From assembly GCA_031254155.1 (NCBI GenBank), contig JAIRVA010000277.1, positions 1-35,717 on the forward strand: a DNA stretch of 35,717 nucleotides, in the 5' to 3' direction. Positions 25,837 through 32,821 of this stretch are shown here, piece by piece. The notes beneath the pieces are model-generated. The model was not told the DNA's origin. It saw nothing but the letters and a program-made list of their open reading frames with translations, and searched no databases. The number at the start of each line of letters is the position of its first letter. Positions within the stretch are counted from its first letter, which is position 1. A program made the translations under genes and the position numbers. Source of the DNA: Propionibacteriaceae bacterium. GTDB taxonomy: Bacteria; Actinomycetota; Actinomycetes; Propionibacteriales; Propionibacteriaceae.

Positions 25837-26744
25837 GAGTCGCCGTCATCGACTGCGGTACGAACACGGTCCGGTTGTTCGTCGCCGACGCCACGCCGTC
25901 GGGGCTCGCGGAGGTCACGCGGGACCTCACGTTCACCCGCCTCGGCGAGGGCGTGGACGCGACCGGCCAGTTGCAGCCCGCGGCGCTCACGCGGACGTAC
26001 GCGGCCGTCGGCCACTACGCGGCCGAGATCGCAAAATTGGGTGTTGACAAGGTACGATTCGTCGCCACCTCGGCGGCTCGCGATGCCACCAACCGGGAGG
26101 AGTTCTTTGCGGGGGTCCGGGAACGGCTGGGTGTGACGCCGGAGATCATCACTGGTGCCGAAGAGGCCGAACTGAGTTTTTTGGGTGCCCTGACTGGTGG
26201 TCCGGTCTGGGGCTCCGTCCTGGTGATGGACATCGGCGGCGGTTCGACGGAACTGATCCGGGGCAGTGCTGCGGGCCGGGTCGAGGCGGCGGAGAGTCTC
26301 GACATGGGCTCGGTCCGGGTCCGGGAACGGTTTCTGCACCACGATCCGCCGCTGGACTCCGAGACCACCGCGGCGCGGGCGTTCATCGATGGGCTGTTGG
26401 CGGGGTCCCCGGTCGCGTTCGACGGGGTGGGGACGTGGGTCGGTGTGGCCGGTACCACCACCTCGCTGTCGGGGATGTACCTGGGGCTCGAAACGTACGA
26501 CCGGGCCAAGGTTCACAACTCGGTCCTGCCGGTGGCGGATATCGAGGCCCTGTCGGAGCGGCTGCTGAGGTTGACCGTCGCCGAAACCTGTCACGCGTAC
26601 CCCAGCCTGCCGCCCCAACGCGCCGAAGTCATCGTCGCGGGGGCCCTCATCTGTACCGCCGTCGCGCGGCGGGTCAACCGGCTCATGATCGTCCGTGAAA
26701 CCGACATCCTCGATGGCGCCGCCCACCGACTTGTGGAAACATAG
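25833..26744 (+). CDS. Ppx/GppA-family exopolyphosphatase
   Basis: GTG at 25833 (GTGA overlap): VRVAVIDCGTNTVRLFVAD; VMDIGGGSTELIRG. Confidence 0.93.
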   Translation: MRVAVIDCGTNTVRLFVADATPSGLAEVTRDLTFTRLGEGVDATGQLQPAALTRTYAAVGHYAAEIAKLGVDKVRFVATSAARDATNREEFFAGVRERLGVTPEIITGAEEAELSFLGALTGGPVWGSVLVMDIGGGSTELIRGSAAGRVEAAESLDMGSVRVRERFLHHDPPLDSETTAARAFIDGLLAGSPVAFDGVGTWVGVAGTTTSLSGMYLGLETYDRAKVHNSVLPVADIEALSERLLRLTVAETCHAYPSLPPQRAEVIVAGALICTAVARRVNRLMIVRETDILDGAAHRLVET

Positions 26745-26750
26745 GACCGG

Positions 26751-26823
26751 GCCCCCATAGCCCAACGGCAGAGGCAGTCGACTTAAAATCGATCCAGTGT
26801 CGGTTCGAATCCGACTGGGGGCA
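26751..26823 (+). tRNA. tRNA with UAA anticodon (decodes UUA, Leu) but short class-I variable loop
   Basis: 73-nt cloverleaf: GCCCCCA/TGGGGGC acceptor, GTCGA-CTTAAAA-TCGAT anticodon arm (TAA at 34-36), CCAGT variable loop, GTCGG-TTCGAAT-CCGAC T arm; A73; no encoded CCA. Confidence 0.88.
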
Positions 26824-26985
26824 CAAGCGATTGAGGCGAGCGAAGTGAAGACTTGGACGCGTAGCGTCGAGTCCTGCCTTCACTTCCGAGCCGATTGAAG
26901 CTTGTTGAGCGGCGGAGCCGCGAGCACAAGCGATTGAGGCGAGCGAAGTGAAGACTTGGACGCGTAGCGTCGAGTCCTGCCTTCA
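26824..26985 (+). repeat. Structured repeat, copy 1 (26828-26926) and tandem truncated copy 2 (about 26928-26985), 103-nt period
   Basis: 26821-26882 and 26924-26985 identical. Hairpins GAAGTGAAG...CTTCACTTC (26842-26886) and GCTTGT-TGA-GCGGC-GGA-GCCGC-GAGC-ACAAGC (26900-26931). Confidence 0.85.
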
Positions 26986-27081
26986 TCAGCCCGCATTCAG
27001 CGTCAACACACCGACGAATTGCGCGACCACGAGGCTCACCTGAGTAACGCGTTTGCGCTTGATTCCCGGCGAGACATGCAG

Positions 27082-27678
27082 CTAATTAGCCTTCGTGACT
27101 ACGCGCTGGAACATTGCGACCAGCGGTTCGCGATCGTCATGTTCCATGGCCGTGACGCAAGCCGTGTCGTTCTCATCTCCGACTACTTTCGCCCAGTCAA
27201 TGAAGTAGCCCACGTCGTTGGCGACGCGTTGCCAGAAGACCCGTTGAGCACGGCCATTGCCTTCGCGAAACGGGTGGATGTAGTTCAGTTGGTCATAGAA
27301 GTACGCGAGGCGTTCGACGAACGTGGACGGTGGGAGCCCCCTCAATCCCCTGGTTGCCCTCAACTCATCAAAGACGAACCCGGCCGCGCGGTCGATGTAG
27401 CCGACTGGCAGGAAGAACGCCGCGTCGGTGCGCTGCTTGCGAATGTCCACCGTCCTGATTCGCCCAGCCCAGTCGTACACGCCTCTGAACAGTTGGGCGT
27501 GAATGGCACACAACTCGCGCAGGTTGTTGGTGCGCGGAATCGCCACCTCGGCCAGTTCGAGTTCATTCGCGAACACAGCCTGCGGCTCCAGGAGGCGTAG
27601 TTCGTCGGAGGATTTCGCACCCAAGAGGTTACGGAGGTCGCCAATGGCAGGGTCAAAATAGGGGTCGGGCAGGCTCAC
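27082..27678 (-). CDS. Fic-domain AMP-transferase toxin
   Basis: HPFREGNGRAQR matches HPFx[D/E]GNGRxxR. GTG at 27678 (VSLPDPYFDPAIGDLRNLLG) overlaps the antitoxin stop; track ORF to 27882 is over-extended. Confidence 0.9.
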   Translation of the reverse strand: MSLPDPYFDPAIGDLRNLLGAKSSDELRLLEPQAVFANELELAEVAIPRTNNLRELCAIHAQLFRGVYDWAGRIRTVDIRKQRTDAAFFLPVGYIDRAAGFVFDELRATRGLRGLPPSTFVERLAYFYDQLNYIHPFREGNGRAQRVFWQRVANDVGYFIDWAKVVGDENDTACVTAMEHDDREPLVAMFQRVVTKAN

Positions 27679-27854
27679 TGCACGCTGATCCCATAGCGGG
27701 CACGAATCTGCTCTGCCGCTTGTCGGGCACTGGCCGTACCGACAACATAGTTGTCCGCGATGCGCTTGGACTCCTCGCTGACGACGAGATTCTCCAAGTG
27801 CTGGTTCGCGACGGCCTGGTCGACTTTGGCCTGACGCTGATCTGCGTTTTGCAT
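27675..27854 (-). CDS. VbhA-family antitoxin (59 aa; not in the supplied ORF track)
   Basis: Hand translation MQNADQRQAKVDQAVANQHLENLVVSEESKRIADNYVVGTASARQAAEQIRARYGISVQ*; GTGA overlap with fic. Confidence 0.85.
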   Translation of the reverse strand: MQNADQRQAKVDQAVANQHLENLVVSEESKRIADNYVVGTASARQAAEQIRARYGISVQ

Positions 27855-28202
27855 GACACCACTTTAGCACGACGAGCACCATGAGGACAATATGTATTTC
27901 GCGAGATTTCGGTCGCCTGTCTTCGCCGGGGCTGATGCAGCTCTCAGCACCCTCACCGCCACCTTCGCATCCGTCTTCGACACGCCAATCCCCGCCCCCG
28001 GGGATGAATCATCTCCATGCCGTTCCTCTCCTTGAGGTGTCATGCCCGCCGGGGTGGCACCGGCACACCTGTGGTCTCCTCAGGGCAACTGATACGATGG
28101 ACGGCCGACAAAGTGGGAAGTCGGTGCTATCATCCGTTGACGAAGGGTCGCCTCGAACAGGTGCGGGGTCACCACTGACCCGCAGCAAGAAGGGAGACGA
28201 GC

Positions 28203-29141
28203 ATGATGGACTTCACCGCAATCGACTTTGAGACGGCGAACGCCTACAGGGGTTCACCATGCTCTGTGGGGCTGGTGAGAGTCCGTGACGGTGTGCCTAC
28301 GGAAACGGCGCACTGGCTTATGCGCCCGCCAGAGGGCGTCGATGGCTTTGACCCCTTCAACATCTCGATCCACGGGATAACTCCCGAGATGGTGTCTGGC
28401 GAGCCTCGTTGGAAAGACATACTTCCGCGAATCTCCGACTTCATAGGCGACGACGTGGTAGTCGCACACAACGCCGGGTTCGACACAGGCGTGATTCGTT
28501 ACGCTTGCGCGTCCGACGGGATCGAGTGGCCCGATCTGCGCTTCCTCTGCACGATGGTTCTAGCGCGGCGAGCACTGCAACTTCCGTCGTATCGGCTCCC
28601 CTACGTTCTGGAAGAGCTTGGCGGGCACATTGAGGACCATCACGATGCGCTTGCCGATGCGAGCGCAGTGGTTGGCATCGTTCGTGCTCTCGCGGCCAAG
28701 ACCGGAGCAGTCAATGTAGAAAACCTGGCAAGCACCTACAACGTCCTCGTCGGGCACATGTTCGGCGGCACCTACAAGGGCAGTTCGGCGAGCCATCAAG
28801 GTGTCCGCCTGACACATGCCGACCTCAACTTGAACGCCGATCCAGATGGGTACTTATATGGACGCGTCGTGGTGTTCACGGGCGCTCTGATGTCCATGAC
28901 TCGGCAGATCGCCTGGGACGCTTGCGCTCACGTCGGCGCAACCGCTGACGATAACGTTACGAAACGCACCAATGTCCTTGTCGTCGGCGACATCAACCCA
29001 GCCGTGCTTCGACCCGGGGCAACCTTGACGGGCAAAGCGCAAAAGGCGTTCACGCTCCAAAGCAAGGGGCAAACAATTGAGGTAATGACCGAGGACGACT
29101 TCTTGCGCTGTCTCGATGACCCCTCATCGCTGAGCGAGTGA
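28203..29141 (+). CDS. DEDDh (DnaQ-like) 3'-5' exonuclease with C-terminal BRCT domain
   Basis: FTAIDFETAN (ExoI), VVAHNAGFDTGV (ExoII), HHDALADA (ExoIIIe); BRCT: GRVVVFTGALMSMTRQIAWDACAHVGATADDNVTKRTNVLVVGD. Confidence 0.92.
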   Translation: MMDFTAIDFETANAYRGSPCSVGLVRVRDGVPTETAHWLMRPPEGVDGFDPFNISIHGITPEMVSGEPRWKDILPRISDFIGDDVVVAHNAGFDTGVIRYACASDGIEWPDLRFLCTMVLARRALQLPSYRLPYVLEELGGHIEDHHDALADASAVVGIVRALAAKTGAVNVENLASTYNVLVGHMFGGTYKGSSASHQGVRLTHADLNLNADPDGYLYGRVVVFTGALMSMTRQIAWDACAHVGATADDNVTKRTNVLVVGDINPAVLRPGATLTGKAQKAFTLQSKGQTIEVMTEDDFLRCLDDPSSLSE

Positions 29142-29148
29142 TGCACAG

Positions 29149-30909
29149 GTGGCGACCAAACAATGCGCCTGGGATGGGTGCGAGGCGCTTGCCGCCTACG
29201 GCGCCCGGACGAAGCCTGCGTGGTGCGACGCGCACATCACCGCGATACTCCGGCAAGGCTGCCTTGAACCGCTGGAGGCATTCAGTTCCCCGACCGCTTG
29301 GAGGCTGACACGTTGTCTGAAGTGCGGCTGCGAAGCGCACTACCGATTTGTTTACACCCTCGACAAGAACGCCGAAGGCGAGGCGACCTGTCGGGCCTGC
29401 TACTGGTCAAGTTGGGCCACGCAAGGACTTGCCTTGGGAGCCACGGCAAGCAGCCCCGGGCTTTCTGACCTCGATGCCGATGAGGCGCGGGCATTTGCAG
29501 AAGCACGCGGGTACGACTATCTCGGGGCCTTGCAGCCTCCCGCCCATCGAGTTCGTTGCCAGTATTGCGGGCGGATCAGTGCCGAGCGAATCGGTGACAT
29601 TGGTTGGGGCTGTAGTTGCCAGGTGAACCCGCGCCGAGAAGTCCTGGCGAAGCCAACCGCTACGTTGTTGCGTGACTCGGCTTCGGCAGCGAGCAAGTGG
29701 TGGGACCACGGGCGAAACCCCGCCGACCTTTGGGCCACTGTGGGCGAGCGGACCCGGCGCAAGGCTTGGTGGTTATGTCCCGAGTGTGGCTTGAGTTTTG
29801 ATGCGAGCGTCAAGGACATGTTCGCAGGTGCCCAGTGCCCCAACTGTTCGGCCCGACGCAATGCGGAAAGGTCAGCTCAGCATTCACTGAAACGAATGGC
29901 ACCAGTGAGTGCCTCCCCCACCTTGGTCGCTGCTTGGGTTGACGATGCAGACCCGACGACAGTCATGCTGGGCGACTACACGAGCCACCACTTCCGCTGT
30001 ACGAACGGGCACGAAGTGACGGCGAACCCGTACTCGTATCTGCAACGCGGTTGCCCTGTGTGTCGTGGGCAGACGACCCGTGAGGCGAATCAGACGGCGC
30101 GTCTCGCGGCCTTTGCAGAAGGCCGTGAACATCCTGGTCGGACGCTCAACCCCGAATTGGTCGAACAATGGCACCCGACCCGGAACGGGAAACTGCGACC
30201 CGCTGACGTTGGACCCACGTCCAGGCGGCGCGTGTGGTGGCGAGAGCCCAGTTGCGGACACGAATGGGAAGCCACCCCCGCCGAGCGAGACAAGCGCGAA
30301 CGCCTGCGCTGCCCGGCGTGTCGGACAATCCTCGACTCGCTTGCCTGGCATTACCCGGACCTCGCGGCAGAGTGGTCGCCCGACAATCCTCGGACAGCCT
30401 GGCAGGTGCGTCCGAGCGGAAACCTGTCGTTCATCCCCGAGTGGATCTGTGCGACGGACCCCTCGCACCGCTGGCGGATCGGGACCAACGTTCGTGTGCA
30501 TGGCTCGCCCTGCCCGCTTTGCCGCGAGAGCGGCAAGTCACTCGTTGAACTACGCTACTTCGACTCATTACGTACTGTGTCCGGGGAGGCCTTCAGCGGT
30601 CTGTCGATGCGAAGCGAGGCGTTCGCGCGACGGTCAGCATGGGTACCTGACGTGACTGTCCATCTCAGCGACGGGCGCATCTTGCTCGTTGAGTACGACG
30701 GAAGCTATTGGCACGCGGACAAGACCGATGTTGACCGTGAGAAGTCGTGCGATCTGCTCGCGGCCGGAGCACTCGTTGTTCGCCTCCGCGAAACACCACT
30801 GCCGTCGCTCGGCATTGACTCGCGCGGCTACCTGGAACTGCCCGTCAGCTCCACTGTTCCCGACCCCGAGCGGGCCGTTGCCGCAATCCGTTCCTGGCTC
30901 AAGCATTGA
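29149..30909 (+). CDS. Multi-zinc-ribbon/treble-clef array protein (DUF4379-like) with C-terminal PD-(D/E)XK/Vsr-like nuclease domain
   Basis: GTG start 29149, 7 nt after the exonuclease stop. About seven Cys-rich modules (e.g. CPECGLSFD...CPNC, FRCTNGHEVTANPYSYLQRGCPVC, PSCGHEWEATPAE...CPAC, CATDPSHRWRIGTNVRVHGSPCPLC); C-terminal VPDVTVHLSDGRILLVEYDGSYWHADKTDVDREKSCDLLAAGALVVRLRE. Confidence 0.83.
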   Translation: MATKQCAWDGCEALAAYGARTKPAWCDAHITAILRQGCLEPLEAFSSPTAWRLTRCLKCGCEAHYRFVYTLDKNAEGEATCRACYWSSWATQGLALGATASSPGLSDLDADEARAFAEARGYDYLGALQPPAHRVRCQYCGRISAERIGDIGWGCSCQVNPRREVLAKPTATLLRDSASAASKWWDHGRNPADLWATVGERTRRKAWWLCPECGLSFDASVKDMFAGAQCPNCSARRNAERSAQHSLKRMAPVSASPTLVAAWVDDADPTTVMLGDYTSHHFRCTNGHEVTANPYSYLQRGCPVCRGQTTREANQTARLAAFAEGREHPGRTLNPELVEQWHPTRNGKLRPADVGPTSRRRVWWREPSCGHEWEATPAERDKRERLRCPACRTILDSLAWHYPDLAAEWSPDNPRTAWQVRPSGNLSFIPEWICATDPSHRWRIGTNVRVHGSPCPLCRESGKSLVELRYFDSLRTVSGEAFSGLSMRSEAFARRSAWVPDVTVHLSDGRILLVEYDGSYWHADKTDVDREKSCDLLAAGALVVRLRETPLPSLGIDSRGYLELPVSSTVPDPERAVAAIRSWLKH

Positions 30910-30968
30910 CTCGTCAGTGATGGAGCGTACACTGGGTGTACATAGTTCAGACTGTTGAAGGAGGAGAC

Positions 30969-31220
30969 GTGCCAACTGTCGGTGTCAGGGAGTTTCGGGA
31001 AGACCTGTCGACCTACCTCGATTCGCCGACCCCGGTCCAAGTCACCCGTAATGGCCGAGTTGTCGGTGTCTTCACCCCCGCTGAGCCCTTGGGGCCATTC
31101 GACCCGGTCGCGTTCCGTCGGGCCACTGAAGCCGTCGCATCCCAGTTGGCGGCGGCCGGTGTCGACGTGGAGGACATTGTGAACGACTTCGACCAAGCCA
31201 GGCATCGCCGTCATGCCTAA
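30969..31220 (+). CDS. Phd/YefM-type antitoxin
   Basis: VPTVGVREFREDLSTYLDSPTPVQVTRNGRVVGVFTPAEP; GTG at 30969 after ggaggag RBS. Confidence 0.85.
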   Translation: MPTVGVREFREDLSTYLDSPTPVQVTRNGRVVGVFTPAEPLGPFDPVAFRRATEAVASQLAAAGVDVEDIVNDFDQARHRRHA

Positions 31221-31659
31221 CCGTTCGCTCATTCTTGACGCGAACATCCTCATCCGGGCGATCCTGGGTACCAAGGCTAGTCAATTGTTGCTGACAGCCG
31301 CCGGGCGGATCTCCCTGTTCGCCCCCAGCGCCGCCTATCACGACGCCCGCCACTACCTGCCCAAGATTCTTCTCTCCCGAGAGATCGGTGATCCGGAGTC
31401 CGCCTTGGTCGCGCTCGACGAGCTTGAATCCCTCGTCATCCCGCTGGAATCGGCCCTCTACGAGGCGTGGCGGGACGAGGCGCTGATTCGTTTGGGCCGC
31501 CGCGGTCCGGAGGACTGGCCGATCCTGGCCGCTGCCCTTGCCATCGACTGCCCGATGTGGACCGAGGACCGGGACTTCTTCGGAGCCGGCGTCGCGACCT
31601 GGACAACTGATCGGGTCGGCCTCTTCTTTCGTAACCTCCCCGCGCCCGAGCCCAGATGA
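31213..31659 (+). CDS. PIN-domain toxin (VapC-like)
   Basis: LILDANILIRAILG ... EDWPILAAALAIDCPMWTEDRDFFGAGVATW; overlaps antitoxin by 8 nt. Confidence 0.87.
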   Translation: MPNRSLILDANILIRAILGTKASQLLLTAAGRISLFAPSAAYHDARHYLPKILLSREIGDPESALVALDELESLVIPLESALYEAWRDEALIRLGRRGPEDWPILAAALAIDCPMWTEDRDFFGAGVATWTTDRVGLFFRNLPAPEPR

Positions 31660-31726
31660 CGAGGGCAGGAACGCCGTTGCACGCCGATTGTCGCTGTGTT
31701 ACGGTGTGAGCGCGGAGGAGTACAGA

Positions 31727-31825
31727 CGATTGAGGTGAGAGAAGTGAGGACTTGGACGCGTAGCGTCAAGTCTTGCTCTCACTTCCGAACCGATTGAAGT
31801 CTGTTGAGCGGCGAAGCCGCGAGCA
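31727..31825 (+). repeat. Structured repeat, copy 3 (same orientation as copies 1/2)
   Basis: Ungapped 99-nt alignment to 26828-26926 with about 11 differences by hand; hairpin arms preserved by compensatory changes. Confidence 0.85.
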
Positions 31826-31896
31826 TGACCGTGTCAGCGACGGCTGGCGTCTCATCCACGACGGTCCGAGTCAACAATCATTCTCGAAAGGGCAAC

Positions 31897-32250
31897 ATGT
31901 CACGGTGGTACATCCCAGACGGGTACATCCCGCCCGCGAGTACGGGGGCCGAGGTCTCGCACGAGTCCATCTGCGTACTCAATGACACCCCCGACGCGGT
32001 CATGTTCACACTCACGGCCTTTTTCGCCGACCGGGACCCCGAGCGGTCCGAGCCCATCACTCTGCCTGGTCACCGGGCGGTCCACCTCCGGACGGCCGAC
32101 CCCGCGCAGGTCGGGGGCCTCCGTCTCATTCCCGGCGTACCCTACGGCCTGGTCATCGAGTCCGACGCCAACCTGCACCTCCAGTACAGCCGCCTGGACA
32201 CCACCCAGCCGGCGTACACCCTGATGACCGCCGTACCCCCGCGCGGGTGA
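31897..32250 (+). CDS. Sensory-rhodopsin-transducer (ASRT/PF07100)-like protein
   Basis: MSRWYIPDGYIPPASTGAEVSHESICVLNDTPDAVMFTLTAFFADRDPERSEPITLPGHRAVHLRT. Confidence 0.8.
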   Translation: MSRWYIPDGYIPPASTGAEVSHESICVLNDTPDAVMFTLTAFFADRDPERSEPITLPGHRAVHLRTADPAQVGGLRLIPGVPYGLVIESDANLHLQYSRLDTTQPAYTLMTAVPPRG

Positions 32251-32299
32251 CTCCACCCGAAGGCGCTGGAAGTACGCCCGCCCGAGTAAAGTAGGGGGT

Positions 32300-32821
32300 A
32301 TGCCCGAACAACTCATTATCGGCTTCAACCCGATGGCGGCGGCCAACCGGGTCGCGTACACCGGTAGCGTTGTCCGTGGTCGCGTGATGTGGCTCGTGGT
32401 GGCGGCCCTGATGTGTACCGCGATCTGGGTCTGGCAGCGGACATCCATGTCCGCGAGTACCACGGCGCTGATGTACGGTGTCGGCCTCGGTTTGTCGGTG
32501 GTGTGGCTCGTGGTCGCCCTCATCAACTGGGCGCGCGCCAAGTCGGCGCTCGCGGCGATCTCCCCGGGGATCGCGGCGGCGGTGGACCGGCAGGGGATGT
32601 GGCTCAAGGGTACGGGGATGGCGTGGCCCGAAATCGCCCGCGTCGCGATCATGCCGAGTCGCTTCGGGGGTTCGCCGTACCTCGTCGTCGAACGGGTCGA
32701 CGGGCACCTTGCCAGCATCTCCCTGGCCGATCTTGACGTCATCCCGGGGACCATCGACGCCGCTGTCCGGTCGTTCTCCGGCGGTACCCAGGCCATCGAC
32801 ACATCCAAACTCGGCAACTGA
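32300..32821 (+). CDS. Hypothetical two-TM membrane protein
   Basis: Two hydrophobic helices followed by a soluble C-terminal domain (WLKGTGMAWPEIARVAIMPSRFGGSPYLVVERVDGH). Confidence 0.65.
   Translation: MPEQLIIGFNPMAAANRVAYTGSVVRGRVMWLVVAALMCTAIWVWQRTSMSASTTALMYGVGLGLSVVWLVVALINWARAKSALAAISPGIAAAVDRQGMWLKGTGMAWPEIARVAIMPSRFGGSPYLVVERVDGHLASISLADLDVIPGTIDAAVRSFSGGTQAIDTSKLGN

Follow-up and report, generated by a model that had tools for sequence, protein, structure and literature searches.

Two adjacent genes in the window (the whole 35,717-nucleotide stretch of DNA analyzed here) raise the question of whether an exonuclease and a zinc-rich nuclease act together to cut and degrade foreign DNA. 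The two ORFs lie on the same strand, 7 nt apart, at 28203-29141 (P1) and 29149-30909 (P2), as the original prediction had it, and from their sequences neither shows signs of disruption and purifying selection appears to act on both. Cut-and-degrade defense by the proposed pair is plausible. More broadly, we read P1 and P2 as an accessory pair of DNA-processing genes that was acquired horizontally, belongs to the family "Cys-rich N-domain with nuclease," and is likely directed against foreign or competing DNA. We give this reading a probability of roughly 45%; the cutting, the degradation, the joint action and the target are all parts that we infer.

Genomic Setting

On one side of the contig is a tRNA-Leu gene (26751-26824) with genes that, from reading the ORFs, we take to be eno, a DivIC-like gene, a DUF501-like gene and ppx; on the other is a presumed fba. 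A 99-bp direct repeat (26828-26926, forward strand) begins 4 nt past the tRNA, is adjoined by a 59-bp partial copy of itself (26927-26985), and recurs with 89% identity at 31727-31825 (forward strand). The full-length repeat occurs in these two copies alone in the genome, and they bracket a 4.8-kb cassette with the gene order Fic-P1-P2-Phd-PIN. Three further contigs of the genome also carry a core of ~25 bp.

P1 and P2 had been placed between two TA modules. Downstream this partly holds, with a PIN_2 toxin-like gene (31213-31659, forward strand, 2.8e-33) and a weak Phd/YefM-like antitoxin candidate (30936-31220, forward strand; 19 bits, below the cut-off). Upstream, the Fic-domain protein (27082-27882, reverse strand) stands alone with no proven TA pair, and it shows no sign of working with P1 or P2. 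A gene of the Anabaena sensory rhodopsin transducer family (PF07100, 9e-29; 31804-32250) is located at the right repeat. No integrase was seen inside the repeat-bounded segment. The stretch is compositionally atypical, as had been noted, with a GC content of 0.58-0.61 to about 29.2 kb vs. 0.63-0.74 upstream.

The interval from the tRNA-Leu to about 32300 varies within the genus; of three relatives, the first carries 6.5 kb of other genes including Fic, the second 4.5 kb with ABC-type genes, and the third almost nothing. The flanking direct repeats and the variability of this spot support acquisition of the segment. Alternatively, the repeat might simply be a terminator-like element that was duplicated. 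One relative of the same genus has a different Fic gene at this variable spot (L159:6746-7675, genome G178).

P1, a DEDDh Exonuclease With a BRCT Domain

P1 (forward strand, 312 aa) is a DEDDh 3′-5′ exonuclease with a LigA-like BRCT domain. The exonuclease domain (about 28218-28676; Pfam RNase_T, 1.3e-19) contains all three predicted motifs, DFET, HNAGFD, and HHDALADA. The predicted NAD-ligase-type BRCT (about 28848-29111) is weak in Pfam, at 12.4 bits vs. a cut-off of 21.3, and draws its support from a match to the LigA BRCT region (1.5e-6) and from the match of residues 1-305 to the DnaQ-BRCT-like phrog_192 (1e-44). The call is also backed by a P1 homolog at a second locus, L043 (see below), whose BRCT scores 39.5 bits. 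P1 has a dN/dS of 0.10-0.17 against its fused relatives, with dS near saturation.

Among the nearest described proteins are those of the PRK06195 type (NCBIfam NF004844), DEDDh-BRCT exonucleases that match P1 over its whole length at 237 bits. P1 differs from them in scoring below the curated equivalog cut-off of 373, and most other members of its clade carry an additional domain, the N-domain described below. In PADLOC, P1 matched via its exonuclease domain only (CRISPR-associated DEDDh, candidate PDC-S48). The diDNases, exonucleases of actinomycete islands near defense genes, belong to the same wider DEDD group and share the patchy occurrence in such islands (PMC11706625). They are DEDDy dinucleases without a BRCT and have HTH and HIRAN/HipA partners, whereas P1 is a DEDDh enzyme with a BRCT and other partners.

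P2, a Zinc Array With an EDxHD-Type Nuclease Domain

P2 (forward strand, 586 aa, GTG start) combines a treble-clef zinc array with an EDxHD/Vsr-type PD-(D/E)XK nuclease, and its three parts run in order along the forward strand. The N-domain (aa 1-160, 29149-29628), which elsewhere is fused to P1-type exonucleases, has 11 invariant Cys/Arg/Trp positions in an alignment of 54 sequences, nine of them Cys. A fold search of the N-domain against the PDB returned nothing (best E 0.64). Against a viral structure library the N-domain model matched treble-clef proteins only in part (TM about 0.3), several of them named homing endonucleases. The predicted zinc-ribbon array follows as four DUF4379 stretches in Pfam (aa 165-460, 29641-30528, 2.6e-33) and is probably the DNA-binding part of the protein.

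The C-terminal domain (aa 466-586, 30544-30906) gave nothing convincing in Pfam when the window sequence was searched singly. Among 37 homologs, MTES_1575 REase matched in 31 and DUF559 in 25, and the residues D, E-Y-D-G, Y-W-H, D, K, and RxRE are invariant; the active site is probably formed by D501, E515, D517, H522, D529, and K532. The AF2 model of the domain (pLDDT 86) folds as a PD-(D/E)XK nuclease, with Foldseek matches to Bax1 (4e-5) and McrC (2e-3) at moderate TM-scores of 0.5-0.56. With these conserved catalytic residues and this fold P2 falls in the EDxHD/Vsr superfamily, which bears out the Vsr/DUF559-type assignment made earlier. The best PDB sequence match is 3r3p (record title "Mobile intron protein," E 1e-4), which we take to be an I-Bth0305I-type EDxHD homing endonuclease. 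This enzyme resembles the P2 nuclease domain in sequence, but it matched no zinc array, and P2 is not intron-encoded. The dN/dS of P2 is about 0.12 against L043, with dS near saturation.

None of the PADLOC system models matched P2, and no known defense system matches the pair. The system had been called undescribed, and this holds for the domain combination and the N-domain only. Nucleases with a zinc array (CapR/DUF4379/DUF723-like) and an EDxHD/Vsr-like domain are carried by phage group II introns and have been described as homing-endonuclease-like (PMC12350094). Like P2, they consist of several ~60-aa treble-clef-like modules and then the EDxHD/Vsr-like C-terminal domain; unlike them, P2 lies outside introns and carries a conserved N-domain of its own, and the paper does not link them to an exonuclease. 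Nor did we find the exonuclease link described in the literature, most subscription papers aside.

By analogy with the published class, which has the same layout, P2 likely has a homing-type origin, and later use in defense would be compatible with it. The main rival to cut-and-degrade defense goes further, taking P2 to be a selfish gene, free-standing and homing-endonuclease-like, that inserted next to the exonuclease gene, and the fused N-domain to be a domesticated remnant, so that P1 and P2 need not cooperate. The shared layout, the mobile-intron protein as closest PDB sequence match, and the partial likeness of the N-domain model to viral treble-clef proteins all suit this account. Against it, P2 is a free ORF, intron or intein encoding being a common, though not universal, trait of homing endonucleases; the only hits of an Rfam scan of 26700-32400 were the tRNA and, below threshold, an antisense match. 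P2 is also one of five genes in the repeat-bounded segment, not a single-gene insertion, and it is under purifying selection. We regard this rival as rather unlikely, and the relatives of P2 bear on it further.

Relatives of P1 and P2

An N-domain profile run against about 85,000 species picked out 64 loci, all in actinobacterial records: fused EXO-BRCT-N genes, P2-type N-zinc-nuclease genes, ORFs with the N-domain only, and the adjacent pair in L043, a Micrococcales MAG. The N-domain is patchy in its distribution, with 4/397 genomes of the phylum and 7/395 of the class (three of those seven weak), and viral contigs contained two N-domain loci only.

P2-type genes number about 38. They are usually solo and often plasmid-borne, with full-length homologs standing alone on plasmids of Streptomyces, Rhodococcus, Mycobacterium, and Arthrobacter, and several are broken by stops, frameshifts, or inserts. 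An exonuclease lies directly upstream in 2/~45 loci, the window and L043. The P2 proteins of these two loci are 79% identical and the exonucleases 41%, and the DNA similarity is essentially confined to the P2 gene. The adjacency expected to recur across genomes is thus rare. A lack of conserved adjacency was one of the refuting conditions set with the original prediction, and by this measure the operon of two genes mostly does not stand; a widely conserved P1-P2 operon is rejected. The solo habit, the disrupted genes, and the sharing of the P2 gene alone between the window and L043 are again what a selfish homing gene might produce, yet two adjacencies to DEDDh-BRCT genes would be unexpected had it landed at random. 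One P2-type gene is split by a ~1.3-kb insert (L040:7323-10808, the same gene as in L098), and another in L047 is interrupted similarly.

What survives of the conserved two-gene defense operon is the link between exonuclease-BRCT and N-domain, which recurs as a fusion in 18-19 actinobacteria, some of them with defense genes nearby. The fused EXO-BRCT-N gene was found in 18 genomes (one gene is cut by a contig end), with a further split gene in Nocardia. Each of the 18 joins a P1-type exonuclease to a P2-type N-domain in one ORF without the remaining parts of P2. Four genomes of the same order have a P1-type exonuclease ~65% identical to P1 and fused to the P2 N-domain, one of them cut by a contig end. 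That about 18 actinobacteria have this fusion suggests a single family of DNA-attacking genes, possibly for defense. P1 and P2 might instead be neighbors by chance, put together when a variable region recombined, and have no joint function. The adjacency in only 2/~45 loci and the unrelated cargo that follows the tRNA-Leu in relatives fit such an accident, but the same two modules are fused elsewhere and the second adjacency involves a different exonuclease, and we consider it improbable.

In the P1 tree, the window P1 is nested in the fused clade as sister to Williamsia and Rhodococcus (98/92, 96/87). In the N-domain tree, the window N-domain groups with L043 and other solo P2-type genes (100/93, 97/98). 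Both are short, single-protein trees in which the named branches are well supported. The differing positions point to a recombinant pair: most simply, the ancestor of the window exonuclease would be a fused form whose N-domain was lost, and the exonuclease now precedes a P2-type gene. We rejected the idea that the pair arose when a stop split a fused gene, as P2 is in another frame with its own start and its N-domain groups with the solo genes. Two other P1-type genes (G590, G093) stand alone, with neither an N-domain nor a P2 within about 8 kb, so the N-domain is also lost where there is no P2.

Possible Joint Action of P1 and P2

In the proposed mechanism, the zinc array of P2 would bind DNA and its EDxHD domain would cut or nick it. 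P1 could then degrade one strand 3′-5′ from the end made by P2, its BRCT perhaps helping to bind broken DNA or a partner. Most relatives of P1 have a zinc N-domain in cis on the exonuclease (EXO-BRCT-N, often with a second gene, gene X). The window exonuclease appears to have lost its own, and the adjoining P2 could provide a replacement in trans. Foreign or competing DNA would be the likely target.

The reading of P1 and P2 as a DNA-processing pair draws on the fusions, the two adjacencies with very different exonucleases, the tree positions, the invariant motifs, the purifying selection, the defense neighbors, the patchy spread, and the repeat-bounded segment. We counted against it the rarity of the adjacency, the two standalone genes lacking both N-domain and P2, the homing-like layout of P2, a control from a single genus, and the few PADLOC matches. 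A DNA-repair pair, with Vsr-like nicking followed by exonuclease removal, would suit the Vsr-like fold of P2 and the LigA-type BRCT of P1, but is very unlikely given the very patchy, partly plasmid-borne distribution and a long zinc array that mismatch recognition does not need. If the link is functional, homing-type zinc-array nucleases would have been recycled and a DNA-reading zinc module passed to an exonuclease, and a targeted DNA-degrading enzyme could arise either in cis, by fusion, or in trans, as an operon.

Gene X and Defense Neighbors

In 12/19 fused loci (two matches are weak or partial), gene X (~200 aa) immediately precedes the fused gene and abuts or overlaps it. Examples are L067:5076-5906 and L101:5292-5891. 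A further weak match lies downstream of the fused gene in L061. The two members tested had no Pfam match, and the family shares a conserved ending motif, ERRRRT...TPWIMP. A search of the window for gene X found no copy.

Some fused genes are near type I RM, CBASS, Wadjet, or Abi/PARIS-like genes. PADLOC matches near them include type I RM (L055), TRIP13 (L061), JetD (L068), AbiLi/AriA-like (L091), and TniQ (L067), with a HORMA match in the set. When 20 more neighbors of fused genes were scanned one by one in PADLOC, most gave no match. In a control drawn from a single genus, that of the window, 93 genes surrounding fba matched 12 mostly generic PADLOC families. These neighbors were counted by family rather than by locus, with no matched statistics, and the defense-gene neighborhood of the fused genes is suggestive.

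A more specific possibility, which we put forward tentatively as an improbable one, is an undescribed actinobacterial defense family in which gene X and the EXO-BRCT-zinc fusion would sense and degrade invading DNA. The window would then hold a trans version, with the zinc-array endonuclease making the initial cut and also providing the zinc domain. Gene X and EXO-BRCT-N form a conserved, uncharacterized actinobacterial pair that is directly testable for defense.

The P2-type genes have other neighbors. In two loci (L050:5379-6836, L069:5741-6958) the upstream gene is, by our reading of the sequence, presumably AlbA_2-like (Schlafen-type). Type III RM genes lie beside five Corynebacterium P2-type loci, on either side (L071, L078, L079, L083, and L087, the last two truncated).
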